Shown: positions 7,001 through 27,086 of the stretch, piece by piece | Position numbering within the stretch: position 1 is the first letter of the stretch | Layout of the letters: every line of letters starts with the position of its first letter | Assembly: GCF_018127965.1 (NCBI RefSeq) | Contig: NZ_CP072350.1 | Coordinates: 310,001-374,000 of the forward strand | Direction: 5' to 3' | DNA: 64,000 bases | Source: Prevotella melaninogenica | GTDB lineage: Bacteria; Bacteroidota; Bacteroidia; Bacteroidales; Bacteroidaceae | Program-made: the position numbers and the translations under genes | Notes under the pieces: model-generated | Seen by the model: the letters and a program-made list of their open reading frames with translations, nothing else | What the model was told of the DNA's origin: nothing | The model's database searches: none

Positions 7001-7091
7001 TTGAAGAATATGTTTGTGCAGTCACACTGGCAGGACCCATAGCCATCATAGCTGCGATGACCCATGCACTAAGAGTAGTTTTTTTATTCAT
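4062..7091 (-). CDS. GH85-like endo-beta-N-acetylglucosaminidase with type IX sorting tail
   Basis: A secreted protein of 1,009 residues with a signal peptide ending near residue 26 (SVTAQ). The catalytic region spans about residues 110-420. FDGINYNWEST at 210-220 supplies the Asn216-x-Glu218 pair expected of GH85, where Asn orients the substrate N-acetyl group and Glu is the acid/base. LYAGVWIVSMD follows at the position of the family's Y-x-G-V motif. Later parts are beta-rich: a carbohydrate-binding-like region, a fibronectin-like stretch and a GEVES-like domain. The C-terminus (LPAGVYLVKMQ then KITIK) is typical of type IX secretion sorting domains, so cell-surface attachment is likely. 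It lies third in the SusC-SusD-GH85 order and is a divergent paralogue of the next gene. The precise glycan is inferred, not shown. Confidence 0.85.
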   Translation of the reverse strand: MNKKTTLSAWVIAAMMAMGPASVTAQTYSSTASTQVFDLSKLGDQTLLEHFAQLLDNGKKYPTDADLTAWGIKDEVEFIRSHVRKRAIESRADRLLQDTYENRNLFMNIPGGAGKNLGGYPSKTFANDNFSMWNYTNLFGAWNYGLFQAPGSWADAAHRNGTSIFAGIKFFDHTTGGAANSWAGFIMTRNTDGSFRYTRPIINCMRFLGFDGINYNWESTNKYQDADNIAFHKELYKIAKSEGFNDFKIMYYTTSSSLTPYSSRYMWGQDKDNRICEVMLNYDNSDFSWNMGSSVKEAERTMGSADGLYAGVWIVSMDRRWNSLNNQDAKRCGICLWGEHAESRFWSYNTGGDAMSRMSNYQEYLERAFSGGNRNPLYRPEISNRGNNVEAQGTTPPLARFAGLASWIPERTAISGNLPFATHFNTGNGERYNYKGKKTAGSWYNMSSQDVVPTYRWMVVKPETEVASTDVQPSFTNEDAYTGGAALRLKGVNNATATDVVLFKTNLTPSKGKVVAKVAIKTGKEGNNDSKLSLIVRVNGAWKAYALGNTENANWTEKKVELNDITAGQKIERIGLRVKGSDADYNVLVGKLELNDDVTATPANVKDLTVQVKEETKNSLSVKAVWGIDKDPGQNPTVYNDEANIDHFEILYKNGENGKVSEVGRTSQWATLVPNIQFTSVDDKPFIGVRSVSTDLKTYSKTQWIAVPRAQQSELPEAQEEGYGTVELDNAAAGADVAKRIRYVKKFQTEGGSKNIDYTAEGPAGNETNYVDATSQELEVAQGATVKVKIQGYEATQGRDQSNDDLRYCMGKAWMDFNGDKQFNPENLSTNPNEGECVVFFGQVRKGVPAQVQQLNEYEFTVPTDAKPGQSRLRLVFCDAWFQGGLTPTGKFNKGFAIDFKVTITGSNAARGAKADTHDKGVADEPELLEGGSTNIISANVGGASQLTVVSGKVVFENVERAWVFSTDGQTVKSLVNPKSFNTNELPAGVYLVKMQNNNVIRTQKITIK

Positions 7092-7131
7092 ATGATTTAG
7101 GTTTTGTAATTAATACTTGATAGATTTAAAT

Positions 7132-7165
7132 CCCAGTAGAATGACGTTTATGCCACCCTACTGGG
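7132..7165 (-). promoter_or_regulatory. Intercistronic hairpin between SusD and GH85-like genes
   Basis: Perfect 8-bp arms CCCAGTAG and CTACTGGG face each other across an 18-base loop in the 99-bp gap. No T-run follows on the minus strand, so it is more likely an mRNA processing or stability element that sets enzyme level relative to SusCD than a full terminator. Confidence 0.5.
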
Positions 7166-7190
7166 CTATTGTTTCAATTCAGAGTTTCAA

Positions 7191-9023
7191 TTAGAAGTTT
7201 GAAGTGGTCTTGTCCCAGAAGAGACGAGTTGCCATCTTGTCTGGACCGCCCAATGCAGGGATACCAGTGTTGTCAACATCCTGCTTTGTTGCGATGTCGC
7301 TTGTACCAGGGAATGGCAGACGACGCATGATATCACCAGGAACTAAACTACCATCAGCTTCATCGATGTTCAATACAGGCAACATACGTGGGAAGCCTGT
7401 ACGACGGAGGTCAACCCATGCCTCGAAGCCATTAGGATAAGTAGCGAGGTACTTCTGAGTGATAATCTTCTCGAGCTTTGTTTCTTTTGAGTCGCTGTCG
7501 TTCCACTTTACACCAACATGGATTGGTGAAGCAGCGTCTGGAGTATCACCTGTTGGATCCTTGTAAACATATGCTACTGGATTCTCCTGTGCCATATAGG
7601 TGTCAATCCAAGAGTCATACCAGTTGACATTCTGCTGTCCGTTAGGACCCTCACCGTCCATAGACTTCATCTCAGGATCCTCACAGTTACCATGACGAAT
7701 ACCCTCCTCATAGAAGTGCTGAGCCGAACCGCCCATGTTCCAACCACGGAGTGCACCCTCTGCACGGAGGAAACAAACCTCAGCATACTTCATCAAATAA
7801 AGTGGTGCAGAGTTGAAGTACTGCTCGTTCAGTTTACTGAATGCGATGTACTGGTTCTCATCATATCCCTGACCTTCACCTGGATGTGTACCGGTACGGA
7901 TACCACAAATGCGGCTGTCAGCAGGTGTTGTCTCGCCTGTCTTATTGTTCTTAATAACGTTGTCGTTCTTCTTGAAGAGATATTTCAACCAAGGGTGATT
8001 GAAAGTCTTCAATGTGATTTCCATTGTTGCACTCATACGAGCATCTCCCCAACTCTCAACGCCTGGCAATGGATGACTAAAGCCCATCACACCTGGACGG
8101 ATTGAAACGCTCTGTGCCTCGTTCTCAATAACGCCATCAGCAACAGCCTCTTCAGCCAATTTCTGTGCACGAACAGGGTCGCTCTTTACCATGTGCATAG
8201 CGATACGCAACTTCAATGAATTAGCATAACGTGCCCATGCCTTCAACGTTCCGTCAGCAGCACCACCATCGGTCATAACTACGAAACGATCAACAAACGC
8301 ACTCTTAATCTTCTGCTTGTAGGCAGCTGGCTTCTGATCGAAGTAGTGGAAACAAGCAATGGCTGTGTCGAGGTTGGCAACAGCATCGTTGTAGACATCC
8401 TCAACCTTGTTATAGGTATAAGGACCTACCTGCAAGTTAGTCTTCAACTCACGATAAGGCATTGGACCATAAACGTCAGCTACCTCAACAGCCTGCTGGT
8501 TGAAAAGAGTCAAATAAGCTGCCTTCAACTCTGGAACAGCATTTACCTTCTCATTATTCAAGATAGGTACAAGTGAGGTCTTCATCTCTGTGAATGAGCC
8601 CCATGCACCACCATAGCACTTCTGGTCGATAGCATAAGACGATGCCAAACGAATCTTTGAATACTGGAAGAAAGTATGAGGAACAACCGTATACTCAGCA
8701 TAGTTGTCAATACCGAGAGAATACTGATACTGATAAGCATGTGGACCAGGGTTCTCACCATTCTTACCACCACGCATAGAGAACTGTCCACCAACACCAG
8801 CATCGAGCAAGTCTTGCATTGCATTGAGTGCCTCATCTGCTGCTGCAGCGTCTGTAGCCTGACGGAAAGGAATCTTATCCACGTCACCACGGCTTGTCAC
8901 CTTCTCAACATTCTTGGTTGTTGAGTTGAACTCATCACCAGGGTTGTCATAGTCAAGACATGACTGTAGACCCAGTGTTGGCAATGCCATCGCCATGAGT
9001 ACGATTATATGTTTACTTTTCAT
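7191..9023 (-). CDS. SusD/RagB-like glycan-binding lipoprotein (locus 1)
   Basis: A 610-residue outer-membrane lipoprotein with a lipobox ending at Cys22 (GLQSC). Family features include the early-middle segment VEVADVYGPMPY, the helical repeat segment ARYANSLKLRIAMHM, and the C-terminal LITQK-like stretch followed by GFEAWVDLRRTGFP, all common in SusD-like proteins. SusD proteins cap the paired SusC barrel and capture oligosaccharides. The gene lies 156 bp downstream of its SusC partner and is followed by the two GH85-like genes, so it probably binds N-glycans released at the surface. Length is slightly above the usual 500-600 residues. Confidence 0.93.
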   Translation of the reverse strand: MKSKHIIVLMAMALPTLGLQSCLDYDNPGDEFNSTTKNVEKVTSRGDVDKIPFRQATDAAAADEALNAMQDLLDAGVGGQFSMRGGKNGENPGPHAYQYQYSLGIDNYAEYTVVPHTFFQYSKIRLASSYAIDQKCYGGAWGSFTEMKTSLVPILNNEKVNAVPELKAAYLTLFNQQAVEVADVYGPMPYRELKTNLQVGPYTYNKVEDVYNDAVANLDTAIACFHYFDQKPAAYKQKIKSAFVDRFVVMTDGGAADGTLKAWARYANSLKLRIAMHMVKSDPVRAQKLAEEAVADGVIENEAQSVSIRPGVMGFSHPLPGVESWGDARMSATMEITLKTFNHPWLKYLFKKNDNVIKNNKTGETTPADSRICGIRTGTHPGEGQGYDENQYIAFSKLNEQYFNSAPLYLMKYAEVCFLRAEGALRGWNMGGSAQHFYEEGIRHGNCEDPEMKSMDGEGPNGQQNVNWYDSWIDTYMAQENPVAYVYKDPTGDTPDAASPIHVGVKWNDSDSKETKLEKIITQKYLATYPNGFEAWVDLRRTGFPRMLPVLNIDEADGSLVPGDIMRRLPFPGTSDIATKQDVDNTGIPALGGPDKMATRLFWDKTTSNF

Positions 9024-9179
9024 TGTTGTTTATCTTTTGAATATTATTGTATTGTTTAAGCTTATTCGGAGCTAAAGATGTGTTGTAACGATTGTGTTAC
9101 GTGGGGAGCAAAACGTCAAACATTACATTTGTTGCTCACTCCCTTTCACTCTCTTCACTCCTTTCTCACTCCTTTTCTC

Positions 9180-12100
9180 TTAGAAGTTAGCCTTCAATGA
9201 GAAACCGAATGAACGTGAAGATGGCATATTGAAGCTCTCAAATGCGCCGAGACCATTCTGTGTAGACAGAGATACGTCTGGGTCTGTTGGTGCATCCTTA
9301 TAGATGAAGAACAGGTTACGAGCGATGAATGAGAGGGTCAAGTTACGGTTCATACCAAAGAGGTCACGGAAGGTGTAACCCAATGAAAGCTCACGAAGAC
9401 GGAAGTTTGTTCCGTTGTAGAGATAGGTTGATGGGTTGCTTGATGCGCCCAATGCCTGATAATATGACTGGATAGGAACGATGCGACCGCTACCATCATT
9501 GAGTTCCATACCTGGTACGTTACCATAGTTGGTTGCAACGATGTTGTTACGCTCTGCGCTGAGACGAGCTGCCTCTGTACGCTCTGAAGCACCGATATAG
9601 TCGAGATATGACTCTGTCAATGAGAGTACCTTACCACCGATACGACCGTTGATGAGGAATGAAAGCTGGAACTCCTTATAGTTAAAGGTATTGGTCCAAC
9701 CCATCTGCCACTTAGAGTTCATGTTACCGAGGAAGCGGTCGTTTGAACCTGTCTTGTCGAATGTAGGCTCACCCTTAGCTGTCAATACGATATGACCATT
9801 TGCATCGCGCATGAAGTCGCCTGCATAGATGTCACCAATAGCACCACCCTTCTGGTAGATTACCTTTGCCTCACCTACAGTCTGCTGATACTTACGTGAT
9901 GTTCCGTCCTTATCATAACCTGTCTCAAGAATCTCATTATCGTTGTATGAGAGGTTATAAGATGTACGCCAACGGAGGTCCTTACCGAACTTGAAGTCGT
10001 AACCAACAGTTGTCTCGAAACCTGTGTTACGTACCTTTGCAGAGTTCAGCAACTCGGTGTTACCACCCAATGAGCCAAGCTCCATGTAGAGGTGACGAAC
10101 GATGGTGTTATAGAAGGTGAAGTCGAAGCTCAAACGGTTGTTCAAGAACAATGACTCGATACCTGTCTCGAATGAACCTGTCTCCTCTGGTACTGGTGAG
10201 AAGTCGAGCAACTTGTTACCTGACAATGCACCTGTCTGGAGGTTACGGCTCATCGCACCGTATGCCTTATTAGGGATAGAGTTACCTACTGATGAGTAAG
10301 AAACACGATATTTCAAGAAGTTAAACCACTCTGGCAACTTAACCAACTGACTTACGATAGCATTGGCACCAACACCGAAGTAACCGTAGTTATCGGTATC
10401 AATCTTACCCAACTGCTTGAAGTAACGGAATGGGCGATACCAGTCGCGACGATAAGAAGCATCGAAGTAAACGGTTTCTTTCCAACCTAACTGTGCTGTG
10501 AAGAGGTATGAGCGGTCCCAGTTTGAACTCTTTGAAGTACTTGTTACGCCATAGCCACCTGCGCTGGTCTCGAAGTAGTTAACCATTGTTGGGAGCTTAC
10601 GCATAAGACGGTCGTAGTAAGTTGCAACGGCGTCTGTACCCTTTGACTCGCCCTTGATAGTATGACCGACATAACCTGCTGTTGCTGATACTGAGTAGTC
10701 ACCAAAGGTCTTGTTATATGACAAGAGGTAGTCGGTATAGAACTCTGTTGTCTTCTCGTCTGAATCCCAAAGACGACCGTAGTCTTCCATAGATGCAGGG
10801 AGGAAGGTGGTAGCAAAGCGAGTTGCATGATTCTTGAAACGAATCTGACTGTAGTTGACACGTGCTTGGAAAGTCAAACCATCATAGATGTCAACATTTG
10901 CTTGCAAGGTACCAAAGAGGCGGCTCTCCTTCTGCTGACTGTTACCCGAATTGATTAACCAATATGGGTTGTTGTTAGGATGAGAGAGGTATGCCCACTC
11001 CTGCTGTGGACCAGTCAGAGTTGTGCGCTGACCAGCTGCCCAAGCAAAGTTTGAACCATTGAGCTTGTAATATGAACCTGGATTTGACAACCACTTACCC
11101 TCAGCATTCATGTAATGGTCACGATAGTAATCCATATCAATGTTCTGAGGTGCGGTATAGAGATGGTAGAGAGGGTTACCTACCGTACCACCACCAGGAC
11201 GATTCTTTGTCTTTGACTCTGTATAGTTCATCGATGCATCAATGTGCAAACGCTTGAAGAAGTTATAAGTCTGACGGAAGCTGATAGAGTTACGGTTGTA
11301 TGAGTTGTTACGCATCATACCTGTTGCATGGCTGTTTGCCACTGACACGTAGGTACGTGCTATCTCTGTACCACCAGAAAGTGAGATTGAGTTATTTGTA
11401 GTGACACCCGTACGGAAGAAGTTGTCTACATCGTTACCTGCACGGTTGCGGAGATAAACATTATGACGACGTGCCATGATTGGATTGCCACTTGCGTCTG
11501 TACCAATCTGCTCCTCTGGATAGCCTACCCAACGCTCATCCAATGGAGTGCGTACTACGAGGTCGTTGTCTGCACGGTCTGCGAGCTTACCGCCCCAGTT
11601 GTTCAATGACAATGCACCTGTTGTCTGGTCATAAGCTGCACCATAAGTCTTCTGAATCTTTGGTGTCAACAATGGAGAATCGAAAGTGATGTTTGAGGTT
11701 ACGTTAATATCAACCTTACCCTCACGACCACGCTTGGTGGTAATCATCACAACACCATTGGCAGCACGTGAACCGTAAAGCGCAGCAGCGTTAGCACCCT
11801 TGAGGACATTGATTGACTCGATATCGTCTGGGTTGATCAATGACAATGGGTCAGAACCCTCAGAAGTTCCAGTTGAGCCGAAACCCTCTGCACCCATACC
11901 CTGCTGACCACGAATACCATTACTCATTGGTACACCGTCAACAACGATGAGTGGAGAACTGTTACCGAGGATAGAACGGTTACCACGAAGAACAATCTTT
12001 GAAGCACCACCAGCACCACCAGCACTTGGCGTAATAGTGATACCAGCTACCTTACCTTCGAGTGAGTTAGCAGCATTAGGATCCTGCACCTTCATGAGGT

Positions 12101-12557
12101 CCTCTGCCTTCACCTGCTGGGTAGCATAGGTAAGAGACTTCTCCTTACGCATAATACCCATGGCGGTAACAACAACCTCGTTCATGGTGTTAGCTTCTTC
12201 TTTCAACGTTACGTTGATCGTACCCTTACCACCAACAGGGATGGTCTGTGCTGCATAACCGATGTAAGAGAAGACGAGCTTCGCGTTTGCAGTGGTATTG
12301 AGGGTATAGTTACCATCAATATCCGTTACTGTGCCATTAGTGGTACCCTCAACAAGGACGGTAGCACCAATGAGCGGTTCGCCGGTTGAGTCAACGACAC
12401 GACCGGTCACTTTGTGATTACCATTCTGCTGTACTGCCTGTACTGCAGTGCTGGTGTTTGTACCTGCGTAGACACCTGTTGGTGCCAATGCTAATGATAG
12501 AGCAAAGGCAGCCGAGAAGTACAGATGCTTCTGCTTTGATTCTTTAAAGATTCTCAT
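9180..12557 (-). CDS. SusC/RagA-type TonB-dependent transporter (locus 1)
   Basis: A 1,125-residue outer-membrane transporter. A signal peptide (to about residue 31) is followed by a carboxypeptidase-regulatory-like domain at about 48-125 (VTGRVVDSTGEPLIGATVLV, DIDGNYTL). Then comes the TonB box and plug region (NEVVVTAMG; VLKGANAAALYGSRAANGVV) and a beta-barrel ending in an aromatic residue (SFGFSLKANF), as expected for barrel insertion. No N-terminal STN signalling domain is present. The gene heads the operon with SusD and two endoglycosidases; the gap to SusD contains a pyrimidine-rich stretch. No adjacent sigma/anti-sigma or hybrid two-component regulator is visible, so control may come from elsewhere. 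Confidence 0.95.
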   Translation of the reverse strand: MRIFKESKQKHLYFSAAFALSLALAPTGVYAGTNTSTAVQAVQQNGNHKVTGRVVDSTGEPLIGATVLVEGTTNGTVTDIDGNYTLNTTANAKLVFSYIGYAAQTIPVGGKGTINVTLKEEANTMNEVVVTAMGIMRKEKSLTYATQQVKAEDLMKVQDPNAANSLEGKVAGITITPSAGGAGGASKIVLRGNRSILGNSSPLIVVDGVPMSNGIRGQQGMGAEGFGSTGTSEGSDPLSLINPDDIESINVLKGANAAALYGSRAANGVVMITTKRGREGKVDINVTSNITFDSPLLTPKIQKTYGAAYDQTTGALSLNNWGGKLADRADNDLVVRTPLDERWVGYPEEQIGTDASGNPIMARRHNVYLRNRAGNDVDNFFRTGVTTNNSISLSGGTEIARTYVSVANSHATGMMRNNSYNRNSISFRQTYNFFKRLHIDASMNYTESKTKNRPGGGTVGNPLYHLYTAPQNIDMDYYRDHYMNAEGKWLSNPGSYYKLNGSNFAWAAGQRTTLTGPQQEWAYLSHPNNNPYWLINSGNSQQKESRLFGTLQANVDIYDGLTFQARVNYSQIRFKNHATRFATTFLPASMEDYGRLWDSDEKTTEFYTDYLLSYNKTFGDYSVSATAGYVGHTIKGESKGTDAVATYYDRLMRKLPTMVNYFETSAGGYGVTSTSKSSNWDRSYLFTAQLGWKETVYFDASYRRDWYRPFRYFKQLGKIDTDNYGYFGVGANAIVSQLVKLPEWFNFLKYRVSYSSVGNSIPNKAYGAMSRNLQTGALSGNKLLDFSPVPEETGSFETGIESLFLNNRLSFDFTFYNTIVRHLYMELGSLGGNTELLNSAKVRNTGFETTVGYDFKFGKDLRWRTSYNLSYNDNEILETGYDKDGTSRKYQQTVGEAKVIYQKGGAIGDIYAGDFMRDANGHIVLTAKGEPTFDKTGSNDRFLGNMNSKWQMGWTNTFNYKEFQLSFLINGRIGGKVLSLTESYLDYIGASERTEAARLSAERNNIVATNYGNVPGMELNDGSGRIVPIQSYYQALGASSNPSTYLYNGTNFRLRELSLGYTFRDLFGMNRNLTLSFIARNLFFIYKDAPTDPDVSLSTQNGLGAFESFNMPSSRSFGFSLKANF

Positions 12558-13130: not shown

Positions 13131-13742
13131 ATGATTTACGGATATATTAGGGTCAGTAGTGATAAGCAGACTGTAGAAAACCAACGTTTTGAGATTACTA
13201 AGTTTTGTAATGAACAGAAATTACTGGTAAATGACTGGATAGAAGAAACTATCAGCGGAACAAAGAATTACACCAAGCGTCAGCTGGGTAGCCTACTTAA
13301 AAAGGTAGGTAAGGACGATATTATTATTTGCAGTGAACTATCACGACTGGGTCGTAACCTTTTTATGATTATGGAAATTCTGAACATTTGTATGAGCAAG
13401 GAGTGTCGTGTGTGGACAATTAAGGACAACTATCGTTTAGGTGATGATATCCAGAGCAAAGTGCTTGCCTTTGCTTTCGGCTTATCGGCAGAGATTGAAC
13501 GTAATCTTATTAGCCAGCGGACAAAGGAGGCATTGGCACGAAAACGAGCAGAAGGAGTGGTCCTCGGACGTCCGAAAGGTAGAAAAAGTTCGCCAGATAA
13601 GTATAAATTATCAGGCAAAGAGATTCTTATATCAGAACTCTTAAAAAACGGTATATCTCATCGAAAGATAGCAAAGATTTGCAAGGTAGATAGGAATACC
13701 CTTAGCCGTTTTATAACATTGAAGTGTTTGGCTGTAAACTAA
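13131..13742 (+). CDS. Mpi-like serine recombinase (DNA invertase)
   Basis: A 203-residue small serine recombinase. The N-terminal catalytic domain begins with YGYIRVSSDKQ, containing the nucleophile Ser9, followed by the conserved SELSRLGRN and the E-helix region ending GRPKGR. The C-terminal helix-turn-helix is seen in ISELLKNGISHRKIAKIC and RNTLSRFI. Sequence and size resemble the Bacteroides fragilis Mpi family, which inverts promoters genome-wide. The stop codon at 13740-13742 is one base before an 84-bp repeat that is perfectly inverted in the neighbouring methyltransferase gene, making this enzyme the obvious candidate to flip that segment. Whether it also acts at distant sites cannot be judged here. 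Serine invertases normally recognise short imperfect palindromes, so the exact crossover site inside the repeat is not defined. Confidence 0.93.
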   Translation: MIYGYIRVSSDKQTVENQRFEITKFCNEQKLLVNDWIEETISGTKNYTKRQLGSLLKKVGKDDIIICSELSRLGRNLFMIMEILNICMSKECRVWTIKDNYRLGDDIQSKVLAFAFGLSAEIERNLISQRTKEALARKRAEGVVLGRPKGRKSSPDKYKLSGKEILISELLKNGISHRKIAKICKVDRNTLSRFITLKCLAVN

Positions 13743-13743
13743 G

Positions 13744-13827
13744 GAGCGATTTTGTGCGGCAACAAGATACCATTTGTGACTTCTCAACATCGGATAGTTG
13801 GGTAATCTTGTCACCTATCGAGCAAAG
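13744..13827 (+). repeat. Inverted repeat IR1, left arm (84 bp)
   Basis: Begins GAGCGATTTTGTGCGGCAAC and ends ATCGAGCAAAG. It is identical base for base to the reverse complement of 15501-15584. Just outside the arm the two copies differ at once on one side, and on the other side keep the protein sequence but show many synonymous changes, so the identity is maintained by recombination. Confidence 0.93.
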
Positions 13828-13957
13828 CATCAAACGTAAGATAGAAGCAGTCGGTACACCATTAAAAGATTGGGATATCCAAATCAACTATGGCATAAAG
13901 ACAGGATGTAACGAGGCTTTTATAATATCGACAGAGAAAAGGAAAGAAATCCTTGAT

Positions 13958-14045
13958 AACTGTCAAACTGAGGACGAACGCAAAAGAACGGCTGAACTTA
14001 TTCGACCTATTCTGCGCGGCAGGGATATAAAAAGATATGGCTATG
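13958..14045 (+). repeat. Inverted repeat IR2, left arm (88 bp, one mismatch)
   Basis: This is a second block nearly identical in inverted orientation to 15283-15370, with a single C/T difference at 13981. It encodes the NCQTEDERKRTAELIRPI region. The roughly 130 bp between IR1 and IR2 are clearly more divergent. Exchange in IR2 rather than IR1 would give hybrid recognition domains. Confidence 0.9.
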
Positions 14046-14660
14046 AGTGGGCTGAATTATGGCTTATTGCCACTTTCCCCTCACGCCATTACAATATTGA
14101 TGAATACCCAGCTATCAAGCAATATCTGCTTTCTTTCGGTATTGAAAGGTTGGAGCAAACAGGTAAAACGCATATTGTAAATGGTGAGAAAGTGAAAGCC
14201 CGAAAGAGAACCAGCAATAAGTGGTTTGAGACACAAGATAGCATTAGTTATTGGGAGGATTTTTCTAAGCCAAAAATTATTTGGAAGATTATTGGAAGTC
14301 GGTTGGCTTTTGCAATAGACAACAATGGTATAATGCTGAACAATGCTTGCTATCTACTAACAGGCAATCATCTAGCACACATCTTAGGATTCTTAAATTC
14401 GTCACCCCTAATATGGTACAGTGAAATTACTAATATGAATAAAACAGGAGTCGGTGATGCTCAAGTTGGGGCACAAAACATTATACTCTTTCCTATTCCC
14501 TCCACCATAAATGAGGAGGTTGTAGAAATTGTTGAACAGTTACTCAGTACTCCAGCCAATAGTAACTTGAAGCGAATTCTTTCTGAGCGCATATATGCAA
14601 TATATGGGTTAGATATTGAAGAAATAAGTTATTTGGAATCCTTAAACCTTTGATTAAGCC

Positions 14661-14692
14661 ATTAGCAGGTAGTTTTGAATCTACCTGCTAAT
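14661..14692. terminator. Bidirectional hairpin between the convergent cassettes
   Basis: Perfect 12-bp arms (ATTAGCAGGTAG and CTACCTGCTAAT) surround the 8-base loop TTTTGAAT. The stop codon of the minus-strand methyltransferase (14681-14683) lies inside the right arm. It sits near the centre of the invertible segment, so it can serve transcription entering from the expressed side in either orientation. T-runs are short. Confidence 0.65.
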
Positions 14693-17600
14693 AAGTGATT
14701 TAATCTCTATTTCTGTAAGACCGTATATTTGAAATGCAAGGTTATCAATTCTTTTTTCTGATGCCAAAGATTGGTGTACTAATACATCTTGTACAAGGTG
14801 TATCATTTCGTTTTCTTGTTCTTTTGTTGGATGTGCTATAGGAAAATTCATAACATATTGAGACAACATTCTGAATTGTCTTTCTTGCAATTGGATTACA
14901 TACAGCTTTACAAGGAACTTTCCTAGTCTTGAGTTAAGTATACCAAGTACATATCTTGGATCTGTAGTTTCACTACTCATTATGTATGCAGTATTTAAGA
15001 CAATACACCTATTGTCATCATAAGAATAGCATGGGAATGGGTAACCTTCTTCTGGATTATCGGTTTGTATTTCCATGTATACAACTTTTGGCTTAGAAAA
15101 ATCCTCCAAATAAGCGCAGTTACGAAGATTATATGGAGTGTCACCTTTATCCGCACGAGTGGAGATTCTGTCCCAATATTGGTCTAAATGCGTCTTTACA
15201 GCAGGATAATCGTTGATGTCAATGCGTGGGAGTTTGTTTCTAATGCCATTGTGGGTGTTGATTAAGAATAATCCATTGTCCACATAGCCATATCTTTTTA
15301 TATCCCTGCCGCGCAGAATAGGTCGAATAAGTTCAGCCGTTCTTTTACGTTCGTCCTCAGTTTGACAGTTTGATATGATTTCATCACGCTTTGCAGTGTC
15401 GATGATAAAAGCTTCATTACAACCTGTAAGTACACCACGATAGATATTTATATCCCAATCCTTCAGTGGTGTCCCAACAGCTTCAATCTTACGTTTGATA
15501 CTTTGCTCGATAGGTGACAAGATTACCCAACTATCCGATGTTGAGAAGTCACAAATGGTATCTTGTTGCCGCACAAAATCGCTCAAATTCTTTACACTAT
15601 CTTTATTCTGCTTATTGGTAATAGCGCAGGTTGTTTTATGCTGGTTATTAGACCTTGAGAAAAGTAAGATATTTGTGTCAACTGTAGCACTCTCAAAGAT
15701 CTTCACTCCTGCAAAGTCTATAAGCAGTAATGGGTTTGTCTTATTTCCAAAGAAGTCTCTTGTCTTCTCTCCATATCCTGCACGCATCCATTTGTTGGAC
15801 GTAATATAGCATAAGTGGCCATCCTTCTTCAATAGCTGCCATCCACGTTCATAGAACAAGCAATAAATATCACCTGTACGTGCAAAGGTGGAATATCCAC
15901 ACCCTTCATACAGTTTCGCTAATTCTCCACCATTATTTTGAAGTTGTATGTATGGCGGATTGCCAATGACAATATCAAAACCATCAGCTACTCCGAACAT
16001 CCATTCAGGGTCAAAGAATGAGCTTGTATCATTCTGGTCGTATGGATTCCATTCTGCAAGTTGTTTGGCATCATCAGATGCAAAGTTATTCTCATCAGAT
16101 AAAAGTTCTATTAGTTCTTCGCGTAAAGCTAAATCCTTCTCTCTTAAGCGGTGTTTTGTAGAAGTCGACTTAGCAGAAAAATGTAGATGACGTATCTGAT
16201 GTAATTCTTTCTTTATTGACTCTATCTCCTCACTTTTAAAGAGGTCTAATTGACGATCTTCCTTCTTCTTTGTAATAAGTGAGTTTGCTGAAACAAAATT
16301 AGTTTCAAGGTTAGGCAATGTTGGGATGCCGAAGTTTGGTTTAGAGGCATCTTTCTCACAATTACATATCAAGGAAATAAAGAAGCGCAGTTTTGTTATT
16401 TGTGCTGCAATACTCTGTATATCACAGCCGTATAGGCAGTTTTCTATAACAGACAGTTTGAGTTCATAAATATCTTCATTAGGTGATATTCGTTCAAGGA
16501 TGTCAATCATTCTGTTTAACAGTCCCATAGGAAAAGCACCAGAGCCACAAGCAGGGTCAAGTATCTTGACAGCCTTTAGTTTGTCAGCAATCTTTAGATA
16601 TTCATTACTCTTTGCTTTGTCAAAAGTGAAATCATAAGAGAAAAGTGAACGAACAAAGTCATTGTTACCCAAATAGGCAATGAGACTTTCATCAACCATA
16701 TAATTGACAATCTCACGTGGTGTATAGAATGAGCCACTCTGGTTGCGTGCCGTCTCTTTTGTTTCTGGGTTATAGGCACCCAACAAGTTTTCGAAGACTT
16801 TACCTAAGAGTTCAGGGTCAAGTGCTACCTGCTGTTCCTCAGGTGAGTTCTCCTCAATAGTAAAGTTATATCGGCTCAGAATGGAGAGCAATCCTTTCTC
16901 TGGTTCAAAGAAAAGAATGTTCGGAACTACAGCACGATGCTTGTATCGACCATCCGCAAAACGAGCATCATTACGACTGAACCCATCAAAATTATAGCAT
17001 TGTTCAACACCATCAATATAGCGTGTCTTATCCAAACACTCAAAGAGACCACCATTCAAAAACGGAACATCTGAGAAGAGGTTGACAATTTCCTGTTCGC
17101 TGATAGAGAACATTTCAGCGTATCTATATAATGTCTTGACATCTCGTTTAGTTGAAGTGGCAAATTTACGTGTATTGCCATTCTCGTCCTCAATAGCACG
17201 ATTCAAGGTAGCAAAGAAAAGATTCTGAAGGATGGCATTGTAGTAGTTTCCAACAGTCGTGCTATATGGGTCGAACTCTTTCAGTATTGTTGAGAGGTAT
17301 TCAATATCAAAGATTCGATTTGGCACCAATTCCTTCTGTTTGATAAACCATACAAACATAATACGGGTTATCATACGTATAACCTTCTTTTCTACATCGT
17401 CCCTATCATCATCTTCCGTAGTTATATTATTAGGGAAGGTTACCTGAGTAGAGTCGTCTATAGCCCACTGATACCACTCAAACAAGTCTTTGTAGAATTG
17501 TTTGGTGAGTGTCTCAACAGAAAAGGCCTCAGTGATGTCAGTTAAAGCTTGCTTACTTTCTTTCAACTTTCCAAACTGCTTTATAGCTGTGTGGCATCCA

Positions 17601-18028
17601 CGTCCTTCTCCAAGCAAATAGGTATAACGTTTTGTATCAGTAGATATTTTTTCATATTCTCCCTGTTTGTTGAAGCCCCAAGTCTCGCTTACATAGGAGA
17701 AACGTAGTATGCTTTCATTCTTGCGATAGCAGAACATAAAAGCACCTGCATGATTGGTGCGCCAGTCCGTGGTGAGCATATCACGAATACCACGCCGATT
17801 ACGCTCTATATCTACATTGTCTGAGAGTTCTACTTCGTAAATAGCAATAGTCAAGCCATCTGACAATTTTATGTAACCCAAGTTTAATGCTTCTTTAGCC
17901 AAATGACTGCTTACATGAACCTTTCCTGGACTATTATGAAAAGTAACCTTGTTCAGGAATATGTCATGAAGCAGTTGCTGCCATGATTCACGGTTATATT
18001 TTGATTCAATAATCTCTTTGTAATTCAT
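14681..18028 (-). CDS. Eco57I-class adenine-specific DNA methyltransferase / restriction-modification protein, phase-variable C-terminus
   Basis: A protein of 1,115 residues. The central N6-adenine methyltransferase has the S-adenosylmethionine motif DPACGSGAF at 491-499 and the catalytic NPPY at 690-693, with SGSFYTPREIVNYMVDESL before them. The N-terminal 200 residues contain GLTIAIYEVELSD, which might be a nuclease-like fold, but I cannot place a full PD-(D/E)XK site. The C-terminal 300 residues are a TaqI-like specificity domain, the part matched by the silent cassette. The gene is 15 bp downstream of the helicase and surely co-transcribed. Together they look like a two-gene restriction or phage-defence system. 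Resemblance to type IIG, type ISP and BREX PglX proteins is partial, so the class is left open. Confidence 0.88.
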   Translation of the reverse strand: MNYKEIIESKYNRESWQQLLHDIFLNKVTFHNSPGKVHVSSHLAKEALNLGYIKLSDGLTIAIYEVELSDNVDIERNRRGIRDMLTTDWRTNHAGAFMFCYRKNESILRFSYVSETWGFNKQGEYEKISTDTKRYTYLLGEGRGCHTAIKQFGKLKESKQALTDITEAFSVETLTKQFYKDLFEWYQWAIDDSTQVTFPNNITTEDDDRDDVEKKVIRMITRIMFVWFIKQKELVPNRIFDIEYLSTILKEFDPYSTTVGNYYNAILQNLFFATLNRAIEDENGNTRKFATSTKRDVKTLYRYAEMFSISEQEIVNLFSDVPFLNGGLFECLDKTRYIDGVEQCYNFDGFSRNDARFADGRYKHRAVVPNILFFEPEKGLLSILSRYNFTIEENSPEEQQVALDPELLGKVFENLLGAYNPETKETARNQSGSFYTPREIVNYMVDESLIAYLGNNDFVRSLFSYDFTFDKAKSNEYLKIADKLKAVKILDPACGSGAFPMGLLNRMIDILERISPNEDIYELKLSVIENCLYGCDIQSIAAQITKLRFFISLICNCEKDASKPNFGIPTLPNLETNFVSANSLITKKKEDRQLDLFKSEEIESIKKELHQIRHLHFSAKSTSTKHRLREKDLALREELIELLSDENNFASDDAKQLAEWNPYDQNDTSSFFDPEWMFGVADGFDIVIGNPPYIQLQNNGGELAKLYEGCGYSTFARTGDIYCLFYERGWQLLKKDGHLCYITSNKWMRAGYGEKTRDFFGNKTNPLLLIDFAGVKIFESATVDTNILLFSRSNNQHKTTCAITNKQNKDSVKNLSDFVRQQDTICDFSTSDSWVILSPIEQSIKRKIEAVGTPLKDWDINIYRGVLTGCNEAFIIDTAKRDEIISNCQTEDERKRTAELIRPILRGRDIKRYGYVDNGLFLINTHNGIRNKLPRIDINDYPAVKTHLDQYWDRISTRADKGDTPYNLRNCAYLEDFSKPKVVYMEIQTDNPEEGYPFPCYSYDDNRCIVLNTAYIMSSETTDPRYVLGILNSRLGKFLVKLYVIQLQERQFRMLSQYVMNFPIAHPTKEQENEMIHLVQDVLVHQSLASEKRIDNLAFQIYGLTEIEIKSLISR
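15283..15370 (-). repeat. Inverted repeat IR2, right arm
   Basis: Partner of 13958-14045, matching 87 of 88 bases in opposite orientation. It lies inside the expressed specificity domain. Confidence 0.9.
15501..15584 (-). repeat. Inverted repeat IR1, right arm (84 bp)
   Basis: Partner of 13744-13827 with 84 of 84 matches. It covers codons about 815-842 of the methyltransferase, marking the junction between the constant body and the exchangeable C-terminus. Confidence 0.93.
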
Positions 18029-18043: not shown

Positions 18044-21000
18044 TTATTGGAAACTTTCGGAAAGTATAATTTCTGCGTCTGTTTCTTGTTGATTCAACAT
18101 TGTTTCTTCTGCAATATAATAAGGGGCATACTTTTGTGCCATTGTGATGATTTCGCTGAAGGCCTCATCATGTGTCATTCGAGCTTTACCGCCAGTACGT
18201 CGAAGGTTTTTCTGGATACGTTGTAAACGCTTGGCAATATAGGTGATAACACCACGCTCTACCAATGTTTTCAGATGTGCAACTTTGATGTAAAGGTCAT
18301 TGTCTCCAATCTCATTCATAAAGTTGTTCAACAGATTGATAGCCGTACTAACCTGCGCACCCAGATTAGAGAGATCTTTCTGCGAGGTTTCTTGTATACG
18401 GATTTCCTCGTCTTGAATAGTACGGAACTTTGTCAAGGCTTTCTCCACATGCTTGTGATGGTTGCTTATACGAGTAACAGGTTTCTCATCCTTAGTTGCT
18501 TTGAAGTAATTAAGTGCATCAAGAACGGAAATTTCTTGAGCATTTTCCGACACAAGGAAGAACACTTTTCGGAAGTTTGTCTTTAAGAATACCAGCGTGT
18601 CTTCAGATAGCGTAACACCATTAATAGTTTTAGACTCTCGCCCTGTTCGACTGCGTAAGGATATCTTAGCAATACGGTTATATTCCTGTCGATTCGTCTT
18701 AAAGAGAGTGCGAAGTTCTTCATAGAAAGGTAGTTCCTTGTTAATATCTTTCTTTTGCTCGTTCACTCCTTCATCAAATAATTTACTTAGATTACGGTCT
18801 ATAATTTCTTCTTGAGAATAAATTTGATTGTCCTCGCCAAATGTACTATGGAATGATTGGATTTTGCTTAATGCTATCTGGTTCAGATTAATTTGTTTAT
18901 TACCTTCCCTTGAAGGGTAGAAAACATAGTTATAGATATGCTTTGAGGCAGAACCAATACGATTAACACGACCAATACGCTGCATCAGCCTTGTCGAATT
19001 CCACGGTGTATCATAATTTACAATCACATTAGAACGATGTAAGTTGACACCTTCAGCCAGCACGTCTGTCGTCAGGATGATATTATATTCGTTGAGTTTC
19101 TGCTTGTAGTTAGCATCAAAGTTCTCACGTATGGTCTTAAATTGTTTATTACGATTCTGTGCAGAGATTACCAATACGTCCTTACGATTAATTCTACGTT
19201 TTAGATAGTCAACAGTATCAACTGACTCCGAGAACACAACTAACTTCTTCTCCGGATTTCGATCAGTTCTGAAAAGTTCATGTTTCAGTAACTCATTAAA
19301 CTTGGCAAACTTAGAATCATCTTCATCAGAAATATCTTTCCAATCAGCTGACATTTGTTCAAGGATAGCTTGATCATCATGTAGCATATCAATAAACTCT
19401 GGACGGAAATCAGCAGCATGAAAGATTGCGTTCTTAGGATTGTTAGAAGCTTTAGCGTTAAGTTTCTCTTCGATTTCTTCTTCGGATAATCCTGATTCCA
19501 ATAGCAAATTGATGTCAAGGTCTGGTGCAATATAGACCTTGTCATTATCAAACATGTCAATCATATTCTGATTGGCTTGATGGAAATTCTCTATAGAAAC
19601 TTGAAATGCGTAGAAACTACTTTCCAAACGCTTTACAAGTCCATTCTTTCGGATTCCTGCAAGACTACGGCTTATCAACTCTGCATTGTCATAAAGACCA
19701 TTTGCTACTTCTGGCTTTAAGTATGCAATAGCTTGATAACGTGCATAGGTGAGCTTTTTGTCAAGAATCTGTATAGCTTGTTCAAAGAGATTGGCTAAAT
19801 GCTCATTTAGCTCATACTGGTTCTCTATTGGATGTTCAACTTTAGGGAATCCATTCACATCCTTGTTGTATCGGGCTATACTTTCTATATCTGTTCGGGT
19901 ACGACGCACAGTTAATGGTTTAATGATACGGTCTCTTACCTTCTCTGCTAACCGTTTAAAATCCTCAATACTTGTATTGTTATTTTTTCGTAGTCTCTTG
20001 AATTCTTTTATCAATGGAGAAAAGAATGCAGTAAGGTTGCTAACTCCATCAATGGTGCAATGACGAGGGTCTTGGAAAAGTAATATCTCATTATAGATAT
20101 CAGCTGGAGAATTGTTCATCGGGGTTGCAGAAATAAGCATGACCTTCTTTTTGTAACCAGGAATATTACCTGCTTCTAAACGTGGCATCTTACAGATTTC
20201 TTGAAGTTGCTCAAAAGCTGATGTGGTATGACTGCGGAATTTGTGAGCCTCATCTACAAGTACGAGATCATATTCTTCTGCATTCCAATAATTATAATCC
20301 TCTTCATCAAGAACCTTGCTTAAGCTACCGTTTGTAATGAACTTGGCGTATTTGTCTATACCAAAATCTTTGAAAGTAGACTTCCAGTTCTGTTCTACTG
20401 CTGGAGGGTAAACTACAAGAATCTTGGTGTGCTCATAACCATTCTCTATAAGGAATTTCTTTGCAATCATGGTTGCAACAATGGTCTTACCCAAGCCAAC
20501 CACATCCGAGAGAAAGAATCCATCGTAGCGAATAAGCTTTTGATAGCCTTCTATGACGGCATCCATCTGATAATCATATTTCGTATAGCCCTCTGGCATA
20601 TCAAAGGGATCAGCACTGTCGGTCTCAAGTACACGGTCAGCATAATACTCCATTAGCATCTTAATGTAAAGATCATAAGGAGGAACATCGCCTTTAAGGT
20701 AGGTTCTGTCAATGGCTGCTTTTATATCTTCAGAGGTAATTTCACAACCTTCAGATTCTTTCCATAACTGCTCGAACTCATCTTTTGCAAATTTCACATC
20801 ATCATATCGGTCCAACTTTACATTGAACTCATATTGCTTGTCCTGTGTTATTCCTAATCCATTCCCTGATAAATTACTTGAACCTGTAATGGCCATACTC
20901 TGAGAGTACTGATTAAAATTATCGGGATATAGCACATATATCTTTGCATGAATCTTTTTGGAAGGATGAGCGCGTAATTCAAGTTTTTTGTCAAGAAGGT

Positions 21001-21364
21001 CTTGTACCATTAGATACATTCCATCTTCTATATCCTTACGATAGTTGGAAGTTTCTATGTCAGTTCTTATCTTTCTGAGATACTCCTCTTTAACCTCTTC
21101 TTCTGCTCCAAAAAATAGTTTTCCTTGCTGTGCTGCTTTTGCGATATATTTGTCTACATCTATGCCTATCAGTACTCTCACCTTTCCGATATTATCAAGG
21201 AAAGGGCGTAAAGAGAAGTAGCCAGATGCACGAAGAAAGCCTACAACAGCATCAAGATTTCTGATTTGAGGATTGTGCTGTAATACACCCTCAAATTCTT
21301 TCATTAGCGTATTCCCATTCCTGTTGGTAAAAATATGGGAGGATATATGTGATTCTATACTCAT
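18044..21364 (-). CDS. PLD-domain SF2/SNF2-type helicase of the restriction/defence system
   Basis: 1,106 residues. The N-terminus (about 20-190) is a phospholipase-D-like domain with the HxK motif IHAKIY at 138-143 and AITGSSNLSG at 158-167, the usual second half of one HKD site; PLD folds can act as nucleases. The helicase core follows: DVVGLGKT (Walker A, about 287-294), LVLVDEAHKF (DEAH at 371-374), LISATPMNN, then TTDVLAEGVNLHRS and QRIGRVNRIGS in the C-terminal lobe. The combination of PLD nuclease, ATP-driven translocase and the downstream methyltransferase suggests cleavage of unmodified DNA. The start at 21364 follows a good promoter at 21437-21466. The PLD domain could be a nuclease or only a DNA-binding fold. 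Confidence 0.9.
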   Translation of the reverse strand: MSIESHISSHIFTNRNGNTLMKEFEGVLQHNPQIRNLDAVVGFLRASGYFSLRPFLDNIGKVRVLIGIDVDKYIAKAAQQGKLFFGAEEEVKEEYLRKIRTDIETSNYRKDIEDGMYLMVQDLLDKKLELRAHPSKKIHAKIYVLYPDNFNQYSQSMAITGSSNLSGNGLGITQDKQYEFNVKLDRYDDVKFAKDEFEQLWKESEGCEITSEDIKAAIDRTYLKGDVPPYDLYIKMLMEYYADRVLETDSADPFDMPEGYTKYDYQMDAVIEGYQKLIRYDGFFLSDVVGLGKTIVATMIAKKFLIENGYEHTKILVVYPPAVEQNWKSTFKDFGIDKYAKFITNGSLSKVLDEEDYNYWNAEEYDLVLVDEAHKFRSHTTSAFEQLQEICKMPRLEAGNIPGYKKKVMLISATPMNNSPADIYNEILLFQDPRHCTIDGVSNLTAFFSPLIKEFKRLRKNNNTSIEDFKRLAEKVRDRIIKPLTVRRTRTDIESIARYNKDVNGFPKVEHPIENQYELNEHLANLFEQAIQILDKKLTYARYQAIAYLKPEVANGLYDNAELISRSLAGIRKNGLVKRLESSFYAFQVSIENFHQANQNMIDMFDNDKVYIAPDLDINLLLESGLSEEEIEEKLNAKASNNPKNAIFHAADFRPEFIDMLHDDQAILEQMSADWKDISDEDDSKFAKFNELLKHELFRTDRNPEKKLVVFSESVDTVDYLKRRINRKDVLVISAQNRNKQFKTIRENFDANYKQKLNEYNIILTTDVLAEGVNLHRSNVIVNYDTPWNSTRLMQRIGRVNRIGSASKHIYNYVFYPSREGNKQINLNQIALSKIQSFHSTFGEDNQIYSQEEIIDRNLSKLFDEGVNEQKKDINKELPFYEELRTLFKTNRQEYNRIAKISLRSRTGRESKTINGVTLSEDTLVFLKTNFRKVFFLVSENAQEISVLDALNYFKATKDEKPVTRISNHHKHVEKALTKFRTIQDEEIRIQETSQKDLSNLGAQVSTAINLLNNFMNEIGDNDLYIKVAHLKTLVERGVITYIAKRLQRIQKNLRRTGGKARMTHDEAFSEIITMAQKYAPYYIAEETMLNQQETDAEIILSESFQ

Positions 21365-22191: not shown

Positions 22192-23181
22192 TTATTCGTA
22201 TGCGCCAATCTCGCTGATAGCGAAGCAAGGATAGTCGCCTGTATCAAAGGTCTCGAGGTTGGAAAGTCTTACATACTGACACTTCACTGGAGAACTGAAC
22301 ACGATTGGGAATGTAGTGTCGTCATCGTATTGAGTTGTTGCGGTGGCAGTACCCATGCTTGTCCATGACTTACCATCTAAGCTGGTTTCTACTGTGACCT
22401 TCTTAACGCCATATCCGTAGCTTGTGAAGCTGCTAAGAATACCTACACCAGACAAGGTCTTAGCACTCTTAAACTTAATGACGAACTGTGGTTCATAATA
22501 CAAATATGTGTAAATATAGGTATTAGGATCACCATCATTCAACTTCTTAGCATTTGAACCTCTGAGTGAAGTCAACATATCGTAGTCGGTCAGAGCAATC
22601 TGCTTGTCGGTGTCGAGGGTGCCAGAAGCGTTGATATTGTTGAAAGAGAAGTTGGTTACTACTGCTACCTTCGTGCTTGTCTTTGCTGTTTCAGCACCGT
22701 CAACACTCTTGATAACAACAGATGTAACGCCGTTCTTCAACATAGTCAGGTTCTTGAGGGCATCGCCATTCACCAACTTAACAACGATTGGTTCAGAAAC
22801 CTGCTGACCCTTAGCGATGGTTACAGATGTCTTGCTAAGGCTGATAGCGTCAGTGCTCATCACCTCTTCGCTACTATTTGCCTCAACACCATCAGATGTA
22901 GCAGCCAATGTTACTGTAACATCCTTCTCTGCTGGAGAAGAAAGACGAACATAGAACTTTGCGCTATCGCCAGTCAAGGTAACAGCTGATGCAGACTTCT
23001 CACCAGCGAGCAACAACTTGTTGCCGTCACTGGTACCAGTATAGAGGTAAGCCTTCGCAGAGTAGTTCTCTTCTGCTGTTGGGTAGAGCGTGCTACCAAC
23101 TTCTGGCTCGCTCTGACAAGATGCCAGTGTGGCAGCAACCAAAGAGGCTGCCAGCACTGACTTGAATACGTTTATTTTCAT
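22192..23181 (-). CDS. DUF1735-like lipoprotein with C-terminal discoidin (F5/8 type C) domain
   Basis: A surface lipoprotein of about 329 residues. I chose ATG at 23181 because it directly precedes a standard lipoprotein signal (MKINVFKSVLAASLV, lipobox LASC). The in-frame ATG at 23211 would add 10 polar residues and overlap the upstream gene. The N-terminal beta-sandwich (ALLAGEKSASAVTLTGD-like repeats) resembles DUF1735/BACON-type modules. The C-terminal 130 residues look like a discoidin carbohydrate-binding domain (LNDGDPNTYIYT, VKCQYVRLSNL, AISEIGAYE). It is the last gene of the locus, in the position of the surface glycan-binding protein of the Bacteroides high-mannose locus. Binding of N-glycans is inferred from context. 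Confidence 0.82.
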   Translation of the reverse strand: MKINVFKSVLAASLVAATLASCQSEPEVGSTLYPTAEENYSAKAYLYTGTSDGNKLLLAGEKSASAVTLTGDSAKFYVRLSSPAEKDVTVTLAATSDGVEANSSEEVMSTDAISLSKTSVTIAKGQQVSEPIVVKLVNGDALKNLTMLKNGVTSVVIKSVDGAETAKTSTKVAVVTNFSFNNINASGTLDTDKQIALTDYDMLTSLRGSNAKKLNDGDPNTYIYTYLYYEPQFVIKFKSAKTLSGVGILSSFTSYGYGVKKVTVETSLDGKSWTSMGTATATTQYDDDTTFPIVFSSPVKCQYVRLSNLETFDTGDYPCFAISEIGAYE

Positions 23182-23200
23182 ATTTGAGTTTCCTTTTGAC

Positions 23201-24361
23201 TTATTTACCATCGATTCTTACGTTCTGCTCCCAAGTTGGAACAGCTACACACTTACCGGTGTTGCCGTGGTCTGTTGCATCCTTGAAGGTATCACCCTGA
23301 CCCTCGTTGAGCTTCCAGTAAGCCTCCAAGCCGGTGCTCTTAGCATCACAAGCGTACATATTGTTAGCAATCTGAGCCTGTGTACGGGCCACTGTCCAGA
23401 AGCGTAACTCGCTCACCTTCACGTCTGCCTTCAGGTAATCTGTGTTACCGAAGTTGATTCGGTTGCTGAGGTTAGTACTCTTACCAGGGAGGTCCATAGA
23501 GTTATCAAGTGCACCATTTACATAGAGGTAGAGTTTTGTACCTGTGCAAACGAATGCGAGGTGATACCACTGGTTCTCGTTGAAGAGCTGCTTACTGTTC
23601 ATCTGCGTACCCTGTGTCTTAATCTGCAGACGATTACCCTCGATAGGAGCATCACCGAAACGAGTATAAATCTCGCCACCATCGTTACCCCATGCACCAA
23701 AGAGCGTCTGGTTGTTAAGTTCGCCAAGCGCCTTACCGAGTTTGCTGATGTTCACGTTCATCTCGACAGTCCACTGTGAAAGGTCATAGGTCTGACGCAT
23801 TGCGAAGTGGATGTTGTGTGCAGCGTTAACGATTGGCACAGCCTGATAAACAACCTGATCGAGGATGTAAACCATTGAACTACCAGAGTTCAAGACGTCA
23901 TACTTGCCATCTTTACTCTTCAGACGGAGGGCAACAGCATACTTCTGACCGCTGTCCTTCAGTGCCTGTGTCAATGGGTTAATCGTCAGTGTCACATCAG
24001 AAGAAACCGACTTACCCTTCTCAATCTTCACCTCGTTAGAAGAGAGTGAGTAGAGAGTTGCAGGCAGTGGCTTGTAAGAAGTCTCGTTACGCTGGTTGTA
24101 TTCAGCGAGTGCCGTTGTGTCACTTACCACCTCGAAGGTGTAGTCCTGTGTAGCGAGGTCAGAGAGACGCACGTTCACAGAAGAAGTGACAGCTGACGTA
24201 CCGATAGTAATATTCTGACTTGAGTTACCGTTAGTATTGGTCTGTGCGATATACGCCTGATTAGAAAGAGGCGAATATTCTGCATTCTCACAAGAAGCCA
24301 GCAGTGTCAGAGAAGCCATAGCCACGGCTCCGATGAAAAGCTTAGAAATATTGTATTTCAT
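23201..24361 (-). CDS. DUF1735 and LamG-domain lipoprotein
   Basis: 386 residues, lipoprotein signal with lipobox LLASC at about 20-24. The N-terminal half is DUF1735-like (SNQAYIAQTN; VRLSDLATQDYTFEVVSD; NEVKIEKGKSVSSDVTLTI). The C-terminal half is a concanavalin/LamG jelly roll with NQWYHLAFVCTGTKLYLYVN and LEAYWKLNEGQGDTFKD, typical of Laminin_G_3. This architecture next to a GH18 endoglycosidase matches the surface glycan-binding proteins of the Bacteroides N-glycan loci. It is separated from the GH18 gene by 16 bp and from the discoidin lipoprotein by 19 bp, so the genes are one transcript. No catalytic residues are apparent. Confidence 0.85.
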   Translation of the reverse strand: MKYNISKLFIGAVAMASLTLLASCENAEYSPLSNQAYIAQTNTNGNSSQNITIGTSAVTSSVNVRLSDLATQDYTFEVVSDTTALAEYNQRNETSYKPLPATLYSLSSNEVKIEKGKSVSSDVTLTINPLTQALKDSGQKYAVALRLKSKDGKYDVLNSGSSMVYILDQVVYQAVPIVNAAHNIHFAMRQTYDLSQWTVEMNVNISKLGKALGELNNQTLFGAWGNDGGEIYTRFGDAPIEGNRLQIKTQGTQMNSKQLFNENQWYHLAFVCTGTKLYLYVNGALDNSMDLPGKSTNLSNRINFGNTDYLKADVKVSELRFWTVARTQAQIANNMYACDAKSTGLEAYWKLNEGQGDTFKDATDHGNTGKCVAVPTWEQNVRIDGK

Positions 24362-24377
24362 AATTTGAATGTCTTGA

Positions 24378-25469: not shown

Positions 25470-25504
25470 TTTTTATCGAATGTTTATTGTATGATAGATA
25501 TCGT

Positions 25505-27055: not shown

Positions 27056-27086
27056 TTATATTTCGATTAAATGAGTGGAATTAGTT

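Follow-up and report, generated by a model that had tools for sequence, protein, structure and literature searches.

Invertible type I hsdS loci, such as pneumococcal SpnIII and the Bacteroides fragilis system, are well known, and invertible pglX genes also exist; in B. fragilis, the master DNA invertase Mpi inverts promoters at many loci. Gene-altering programmed inversions, including those of Type II restriction-modification (R-M) genes, were reportedly described by Milman, Yelin and Kishony in 2023. Here we describe a locus within a 64,000-nucleotide (nt) stretch of the Prevotella melaninogenica genome (the whole of which we call the window), in which inversion of DNA very probably switches the target specificity of a DNA adenine methyltransferase (MTase); this is the explanation that best accounts for the sequences compared below. 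The modification/defence operon consists of two genes, for a PLD-helicase and a gamma-type adenine MTase. An adjacent Mpi-type serine invertase would recombine two copies of a site, S1, one at codon 815 of the MTase gene and the other at the end of the invertase's own gene. The segment of approximately 1.8 kb between the two copies would flip, so that the catalytic part would be continued in frame by either the 300-amino-acid (aa) or the stored 302-aa recognition domain. Over longer times, two inner blocks, S2 and S3, would recombine as well, also in inverted register between the arms, and thereby reassort three modules termed A, B1 and B2.

The inverted repeat and the adjacent invertase gene

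The expressed MTase (14681..18028, minus strand; 1115 aa) comprises an N-terminal region, a catalytic domain (Pfam Eco57I, 2.2e-39; motifs DPACGSG at residue 491 and NPPY at residue 690) and, from codon 816, a recognition domain (TaqI_C, 5.7e-11) encoded by 14684..15583. The silent recognition-domain cassette (13745..14653, plus strand) specifies 302 aa and a stop, includes a TaqI_C domain of its own (9.2e-12), matches a PADLOC Type IIG model with 216.5 bits and ends 27 bases from the MTase stop. The original prediction, made from the letters of the stretch, had stated that a perfect 84-nt inverted repeat joins this cassette in frame to the MTase at codon 815, that an Mpi-type serine recombinase ends one base before the repeat, and that conserved codons nearby are synonymously diverged; all of these particulars hold. 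The repeat, which we take as S1 from the comparison of the arms and from relatives, is exact between 13744..13827 (silent arm, plus strand) and 15501..15584 (expressed arm, minus strand, within the MTase gene). Its first base is the third of codon 815 (Leu), and the frames agree: that of the cassette is open from 13745 to 14650, has the same phase as the MTase and reads SDFVRQQ... like the latter. Just past nt 84, the arms encode the same residues with synonymous differences. A gene and its partial inverted copy meet here at the same codon via an exact inverted repeat, the arrangement of a gene-altering programmed inversion. The 84 nt sit within a pair of 317-nt arms of 85% identity, in which we found, beyond what had been predicted, a second exact stretch of 64 nt (13982..14045 and 15283..15346) and a third of 22 nt (inside 14248..14278 and 15083..15113).

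The recombinase gene (13131..13742, plus strand; 203 aa), the stop codon of which ends at 13742, adjoins the repeat. Its product scores 341.8 bits with the Mpi family model NF009949 (cut-off 272) and has a Pfam Resolvase domain (3.6e-33); the score and the domain place it in the Mpi-type family, and it is predicted to catalyse inversion. It is the sole match to this family in the genome (3,218,481 bases in two contigs). The 21-nt start of the repeat, allowing for one degenerate base, occurs exactly twice in the same genome, and the reversed control pattern does not match anywhere in it, which excludes a chance origin of the repeat. A third S1-like sequence, with two mismatches, is present on the window's contig (G000:C2:408339-408359) and is a possible extra target of the invertase. 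The silent cassette, located directly downstream of the recombinase gene on the plus strand, could be co-transcribed with it. We also considered free translation of the cassette, as an ATG overlaps the recombinase stop in several relatives; others have AGG, CCG, CTG or ACG at this place, and the window has AGG, so such a start is not general.

Conservation of the architecture in relatives

In one scan of named genomes, 270 stretches were confirmed, the best 80 of which (L048-L127) serve as relatives here. By record title, these 80 are mainly from Bacteroidota, with some Pseudomonadota and others, and many are metagenome-assembled genomes (MAGs); Prevotella vespertina, P. multiformis and Hoylesella loescheii are the nearest named relatives among them. 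The architecture could be counted in 36 loci with at least 2500 nt past the junction. A reverse cassette and an Mpi homologue are both present in 28 of them, neither in four, the cassette only in three and the invertase only in one (Fisher p 0.003 for the co-occurrence, not corrected for relatedness). In the remaining 44 loci, the contig ends at most 888 nt past the junction (33 loci), before the junction (four) or later (seven), while the left contig end falls within 6000 nt upstream of the match start in 19 of the 80.

The two S1 arms were compared in 28 loci, namely the window, L042 and 26 of the 80 relatives. Within a locus, the arms agree at 96-98% in the first 18 nt of S1, versus 76-85% between loci, and at 80% versus 41% in nt 19-24. 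The exact run, counted from the Ser codon, extends over 20-29 nt in 12 of the 28 loci, over less than 20 in seven and over at least 50 in nine. Judging from these relatives, the essential part of S1 probably comprises its first 20-29 nt or so, and since the exact run is much shorter in many of them, the 84 nt of the window probably exceed the minimum site. Identity of S1 that is kept within genomes but varies between them appears to be the trace of recombination at a short site.

Among the relatives, seven loci (L107, L109, L110, L117, L122, L123 and L124) carry an invertase homologue, 61-72% identical, that runs in the same direction as the MTase, unlike in the Prevotella group; perhaps these represent a second invertase lineage. 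The silent cassette of P. vespertina (L036:8123-9028, the same as L048) contains an in-place inversion of nt 262-511 with its breakpoints at S2 and S3, and is a natural locked form. The same system is carried by an IMG/VR contig filed as viral (UViG_2876634834_000004; L132 and L135), the expressed A module of which is nearer to the window's silent arm and the silent A module nearer to its expressed arm. Two more contigs filed as viral (L133 and L134) have the S1 core 22 nt from the start of the contig, beside an Mpi homologue. The plasmid search returned one partial match only, to a Bacteroides plasmid, covering 12% of the query, and the phage search returned 27 records with less than 60% identity, mostly of haloarchaeal viruses.

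The modules of the recognition domain and their exchange

The comparison of arms shows that the recognition domain is composed of three modules, A, B1 and B2, bounded by S1 and the conserved blocks S2 and S3. In the silent cassette (plus strand), these modules are located at 13745..14003, 14006..14254 and 14257..14650, respectively; in the expressed domain (minus strand), at 15583-15325, 15322-15107 and 15104-14684. S2 (silent arm 13982..14045, plus strand; expressed arm 15283..15346, minus strand) is the exact inverted match of 64 nt and encodes ...RPILRGRDIKRYGY. S3 (silent arm 14248..14278, plus strand; expressed arm 15083..15113, minus strand) is 31 nt long, 94% identical with 22 nt exact, and encodes EDFSKPK. 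The exact run within a locus exceeds the cross-locus mean in 21 of 24 loci at S2 and in 14 of 16 at S3 (L058 being a tie).

When a profile of 36 sequences was compared with solved structures, the best matches were to CamA (E 6.7e-41), the orphan MTase of C. difficile, and M.BseCI (2.3e-37), covering the catalytic and recognition domains. By alignment to CamA, S1 corresponds to residue 294, S2 to 377 and S3 to 445. In the structural account of CamA (PMC8187626), the catalytic and recognition domains meet at residue 320, so that S1 falls 26 residues before the centre of the linker between them. Of the base contacts given there per residue, Gln346 and Ile349 (pair 3) align with module A; Arg425, Gln438, Trp439 and Arg441 (pairs 1-3) with B1; and Tyr455, Lys456, Ser472, Ala473, Ser514, Ile517 and Tyr521 (pairs 4-6) with B2, while His171 and Lys172 lie in the catalytic domain. 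Each module would carry contacts to different base pairs, by alignment to CamA and not from a model of the window's MTase.

Modules A were typed by the two residues that align with Gln346 and Ile349 of CamA. Out of 56 arms, 53 could be called and three could not: 26 have Arg and Leu (class R-L, as in the window's expressed arm) and 27 have Tyr and Lys (class Y-K, as in its silent arm). One A module of each class is present in 23 of 26 typed loci, R-L being expressed in 16 and Y-K in seven; after collapsing loci at 95% identity, the figure is 19 of 22 groups. For B1, average linkage of the 44 typable arms yielded four classes (19, 15, 7 and 3 arms), unchanged at two thresholds, although single linkage collapses all into one group; the window has class 1 expressed and class 4 silent. 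Each of the three larger classes is found together with R-L and with Y-K, and the smallest accompanies R-L only. In all 17 loci typed in both arms, the B1 class differs between the arms, where the probability of a match in random pairs is 0.33. B2 falls into 20-28 clusters depending on the threshold. The three modules are found in many combinations.

The genome of P. vespertina is approximately 97% identical to the window over the helicase and MTase DNA, and its expressed arm recombines the two arms of the window with a single crossover: along 50 diagnostic sites, 41 are of the silent type, followed by nine of the expressed type, and the crossover lies between nt 213 and 237, in S2. P. multiformis has an A module of the class that the window expresses, together with a B1 91% identical to that of the silent arm and a third part nearer to the expressed arm. 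The clearest exchange concerns two MAG loci, L118 and L123, the backbones of which are 98.5% identical over 7.4 kb. Each one's expressed-arm A is the other's silent-arm A (99 and 100% identity), i.e., a reciprocal swap, while their B1 modules have not changed position (99 and 100%) and the four B2 modules are all distinct from one another (43-61%). The reciprocal swap of A fits one inversion at S1 plus one at S2, judged from the assembled contigs, and would not be produced by one-way gene conversion. Between loci, near-identical A modules stand in the same position in five pairs and in opposite positions in seven, and near-identical B1 modules in five and nine, respectively; these pairs share loci and are not independent.

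Sixteen extra or displaced cassette pieces were counted, 13 of which we examined base by base; the others are the displaced one in P. vespertina (L048), a second in L086 and a third in L056. Four of the 13 start at S2 (in L051, L107, L117 and one in L056) and five at S3 (another in L056, those in L072, L081 and L112, and one in L105), whereas three do not start at a block (L054, L058 and the other in L105) and one abuts a run of N (L110). In two distant genomes (L056:9768 and L036 near 8518), the same head-to-head junction is found, in which reverse-complement S2 (starting CGATT) is joined to S3 (starting GAGGATT); such a junction should not come from sites in direct orientation. At a contig end, L040:7086-7228 (the same record as L083), the left portion of S1 continues as the right portion of S2, which would shift the frame; this fusion is possibly an off-product or an assembly artefact.

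As to the enzyme acting at S2 and S3, a weight matrix of S1 found its best second match at S2 in 28 of the 56 arms and at S3 in 16, together 44, S2 being annotated in 51 and S3 in 41 of these arms. Of 300 column-permuted matrices, two reached the S2 count, two the S3 count and none the sum. The right half of S1 resembles S2 and S3 more than it does any of 285 control offsets; for the left half this holds at neither block, 1 and 56 of the 285 offsets being at least as high. Three cassettes starting at S2 have an invertase gene close by, which in L051 adjoins directly. Against the invertase, the S1-like scores at S2 and S3 are low (medians of 2.1 and 2.6 bits versus 32.5 at S1, in invertase-bearing loci) and no higher in invertase-bearing than in invertase-lacking loci (p 0.39 and 0.62), and a search for an S1 copy hidden in S2, by each arm's own 17-mer, gave results not above those at shuffled sites. 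In the window, a GA dinucleotide is common to S1, S2 and S3 and might be the core, but the intervals to which the hybrid junctions in L051 and L040 confine the crossover differ.

These comparisons leave room for a tentative proposal, to which we would give somewhat less than even weight: a recognition-domain shufflon with a modular base-reading code, on which a single invertase acts strongly at S1 and weakly at S2 and S3. If this were true, two arms would allow up to eight combinations, and more with extra partial cassettes; on the frame of CamA, A would read pair 3, B1 pairs 1-3 and B2 pairs 4-6; and 2 x 4 x 20-28 module classes would constitute a natural combinatorial code of methylation motifs, shared horizontally across Bacteroidota and beyond.

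Alternative explanations and known systems

The PLD-nuclease/SNF2 helicase partner (18044..21364, minus strand; 1106 aa) lies directly upstream of the MTase gene, with HxK at residue 139, GSSN at 161, GLGKT at 290 and DEAH at 371. That such a partner belongs to the system, as had been predicted, is borne out by the relatives: a match on the MTase strand is found in 77 of the 80 loci (in L107 and L110, the match is weak and downstream), and the HxK/GSxN motif is present in 69, Walker A in 69 and DE[A/S]H in 70 of 70 full-length copies. The MTase is a gamma-type N6-adenine enzyme fused to a C-terminal recognition domain (Eco57I and TaqI_C; Type IIG models up to 465 bits), as in Type IIG systems, and a nuclease domain sought in its residues 1-400 gave no Pfam match at E up to 5. 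The likeliest identity, from domain content, is a two-protein R-M or related defence system with the PLD-helicase as effector, in which the partner would restrict unmethylated DNA. The operon is flanked on either side (4062-12557 and 22192-30188) by what look, by eye from the frame list, like genes for SusC/SusD-like outer-membrane and surface lipoproteins; it may be an insertion into a glycan-use locus.

The inversion as a working switch, the mechanism put forward in the original prediction, draws support from the sole genomic Mpi homologue located at the repeat, the recurrence of this architecture in 28 of 36 loci, the identity of S1 within genomes, the contig breaks past the junction and corresponding modules that are expressed in some genomes and silent in others. 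The switch between domains remains very probable; the two specificities then proposed are probably too few because the recognition domain is modular. Several observations weigh against this reading. Contigs that end near the junction are expected from any close inverted repeat, and since short-read assemblies break at repeats, the pattern indicates that the repeat is common and is not proof of inversion; moreover, by taking the best 80 of 270 we selected against matches cut short ahead of the junction, which makes the left contig ends the better control. The S1 arms match exactly over less than 20 nt in seven of the 28 loci, both arms have the same A class in three of the 26 typed loci, and near-identical B2 modules stand in the same position in two pairs and in opposite positions in none. 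The MTase frame is interrupted after 887-929 codons in L056, L086 and L087, where both arms are present, which means that some assembled states are not full length. P. vespertina has a cassette with several stops and no invertase match in the stretch examined. L118 and L123 are MAG contigs labelled Bacilli and Alphaproteobacteria, so either the bin label is doubtful or the locus moved recently, and misassembly is also possible. Finally, that cells of one population differ in orientation and that the two domains read different DNA are steps that we infer.

Were the cassette instead a duplicated recognition domain in decay, which never inverts and stays similar through sporadic gene conversion, the broken P. 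vespertina cassette without an invertase and the three of 36 loci that have a cassette only would be understandable; yet cassette and invertase are together in 28 of the 36, the window's cassette is open, B1 classes differ between the arms in 17 of 17 typed loci, the reverse of what conversion would give, and corresponding A and B1 modules are found in either position in different genomes, with A reciprocally exchanged between L118 and L123, which makes decay extremely improbable. An on/off switch, with one orientation giving an inactive enzyme, would agree with the out-of-frame S1-S2 junction at the contig end of L040/L083 and with the interrupted frames of L056, L086 and L087, all of which would be off states. 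We regard it as very unlikely, as both arms of the window are open and in frame and 52 of the 56 arms (expressed and silent together) are open for at least 200 aa before a stop; because both states of the window should give a full-length enzyme, the switch would be one of specificity.

The inversion might also be the work of homologous recombination between the repeats and not of the adjacent invertase, an option that for S2 and S3 does not exclude the invertase at S1. At these blocks, the shared 64 and 22 nt of the window would make such recombination possible, and the S1-like scores there, low and unrelated to the presence of an invertase, are in its favour. At S1, however, 12 of 28 loci have arms whose identity spans no more than 20-29 nt, which is little for RecA-dependent exchange and usual for the site of a serine invertase, and invertase and cassette co-occur; we consider this route unlikely, and the local invertase would be the agent of the inversion. 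That the locus is simply a BREX or DISARM system, with a known phase-variable MTase gene being all there is, is suggested by weak matches of the PglX, DrmMI and DrmD models, but is barely credible: the NCBIfam scores are far under the curated cut-offs (89.4 versus 500 bits for PglX, and 152.2 versus 610 for DrmD of DISARM class 1), the operon has two genes with no further long frame beside helicase and MTase, its neighbours look SusC/SusD-like (by eye, not scanned), and no drmMI or drmABC genes were seen beside it in the frame list, the neighbours not having been scanned against families.

An inversion-switched MTase of this design could yield many recognition specificities from one gene pair. 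A fast switch of the whole domain, combined with slow reshuffling, would spread defence, and any methylation-dependent gene expression, over many states in a population. The prediction of the recognition sequence of gamma-type MTases from their sequence is a long-standing question, for which these loci provide a natural set with a near-constant catalytic part and swapped modules; L118 and L123, for example, differ in A and B2 and not in B1. With methylomes from a few dozen such strains, base readings could be tied to module classes.

For R-M systems, a 2025 review (PMC11868660) mentions slipped-strand switching and the recombinational switching of type I. Among the matches listed from the open-access literature, we found no description of this MTase family, nor of modules within one recognition domain, with few classes each, that are delimited by inner recombination blocks. 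With BREX PglX/BrxX, the window's MTase shares the gamma-type adenine MTase with its own recognition domain (profile positions 437-781 match BrxX structures), but it differs in its score, 89.4 against a cut-off of 500, and in that no other BREX genes were seen in the operon. CamA and M.BseCI have chains of 577-585 aa that lack the long N-terminal region of the window's MTase, and neither is known to be subject to inversion. The window's recombinase is of the same family as Mpi but, unlike that enzyme with its many promoter targets, adjoins the only exact S1 pair in its genome. As in type I hsdS loci, silent recognition domains lie in inverted repeats, with more than one class of repeat and combinatorial specificities. 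There, however, a separate S subunit has two whole recognition domains rearranged, whereas here the recognition domain is part of the MTase, a single one at its end, in three pieces, with an Mpi-type serine recombinase. There is also a close likeness to the inversions reportedly described by Milman and co-workers, in which a gene recombines with an adjacent inverted partial copy, altering part of a Type II R-M gene; that account is not known to cover a recognition domain divided into modules or any exchange between inner blocks. While the inversion of Type II R-M genes has itself reportedly been described, what is new here is the three-module recognition domain.

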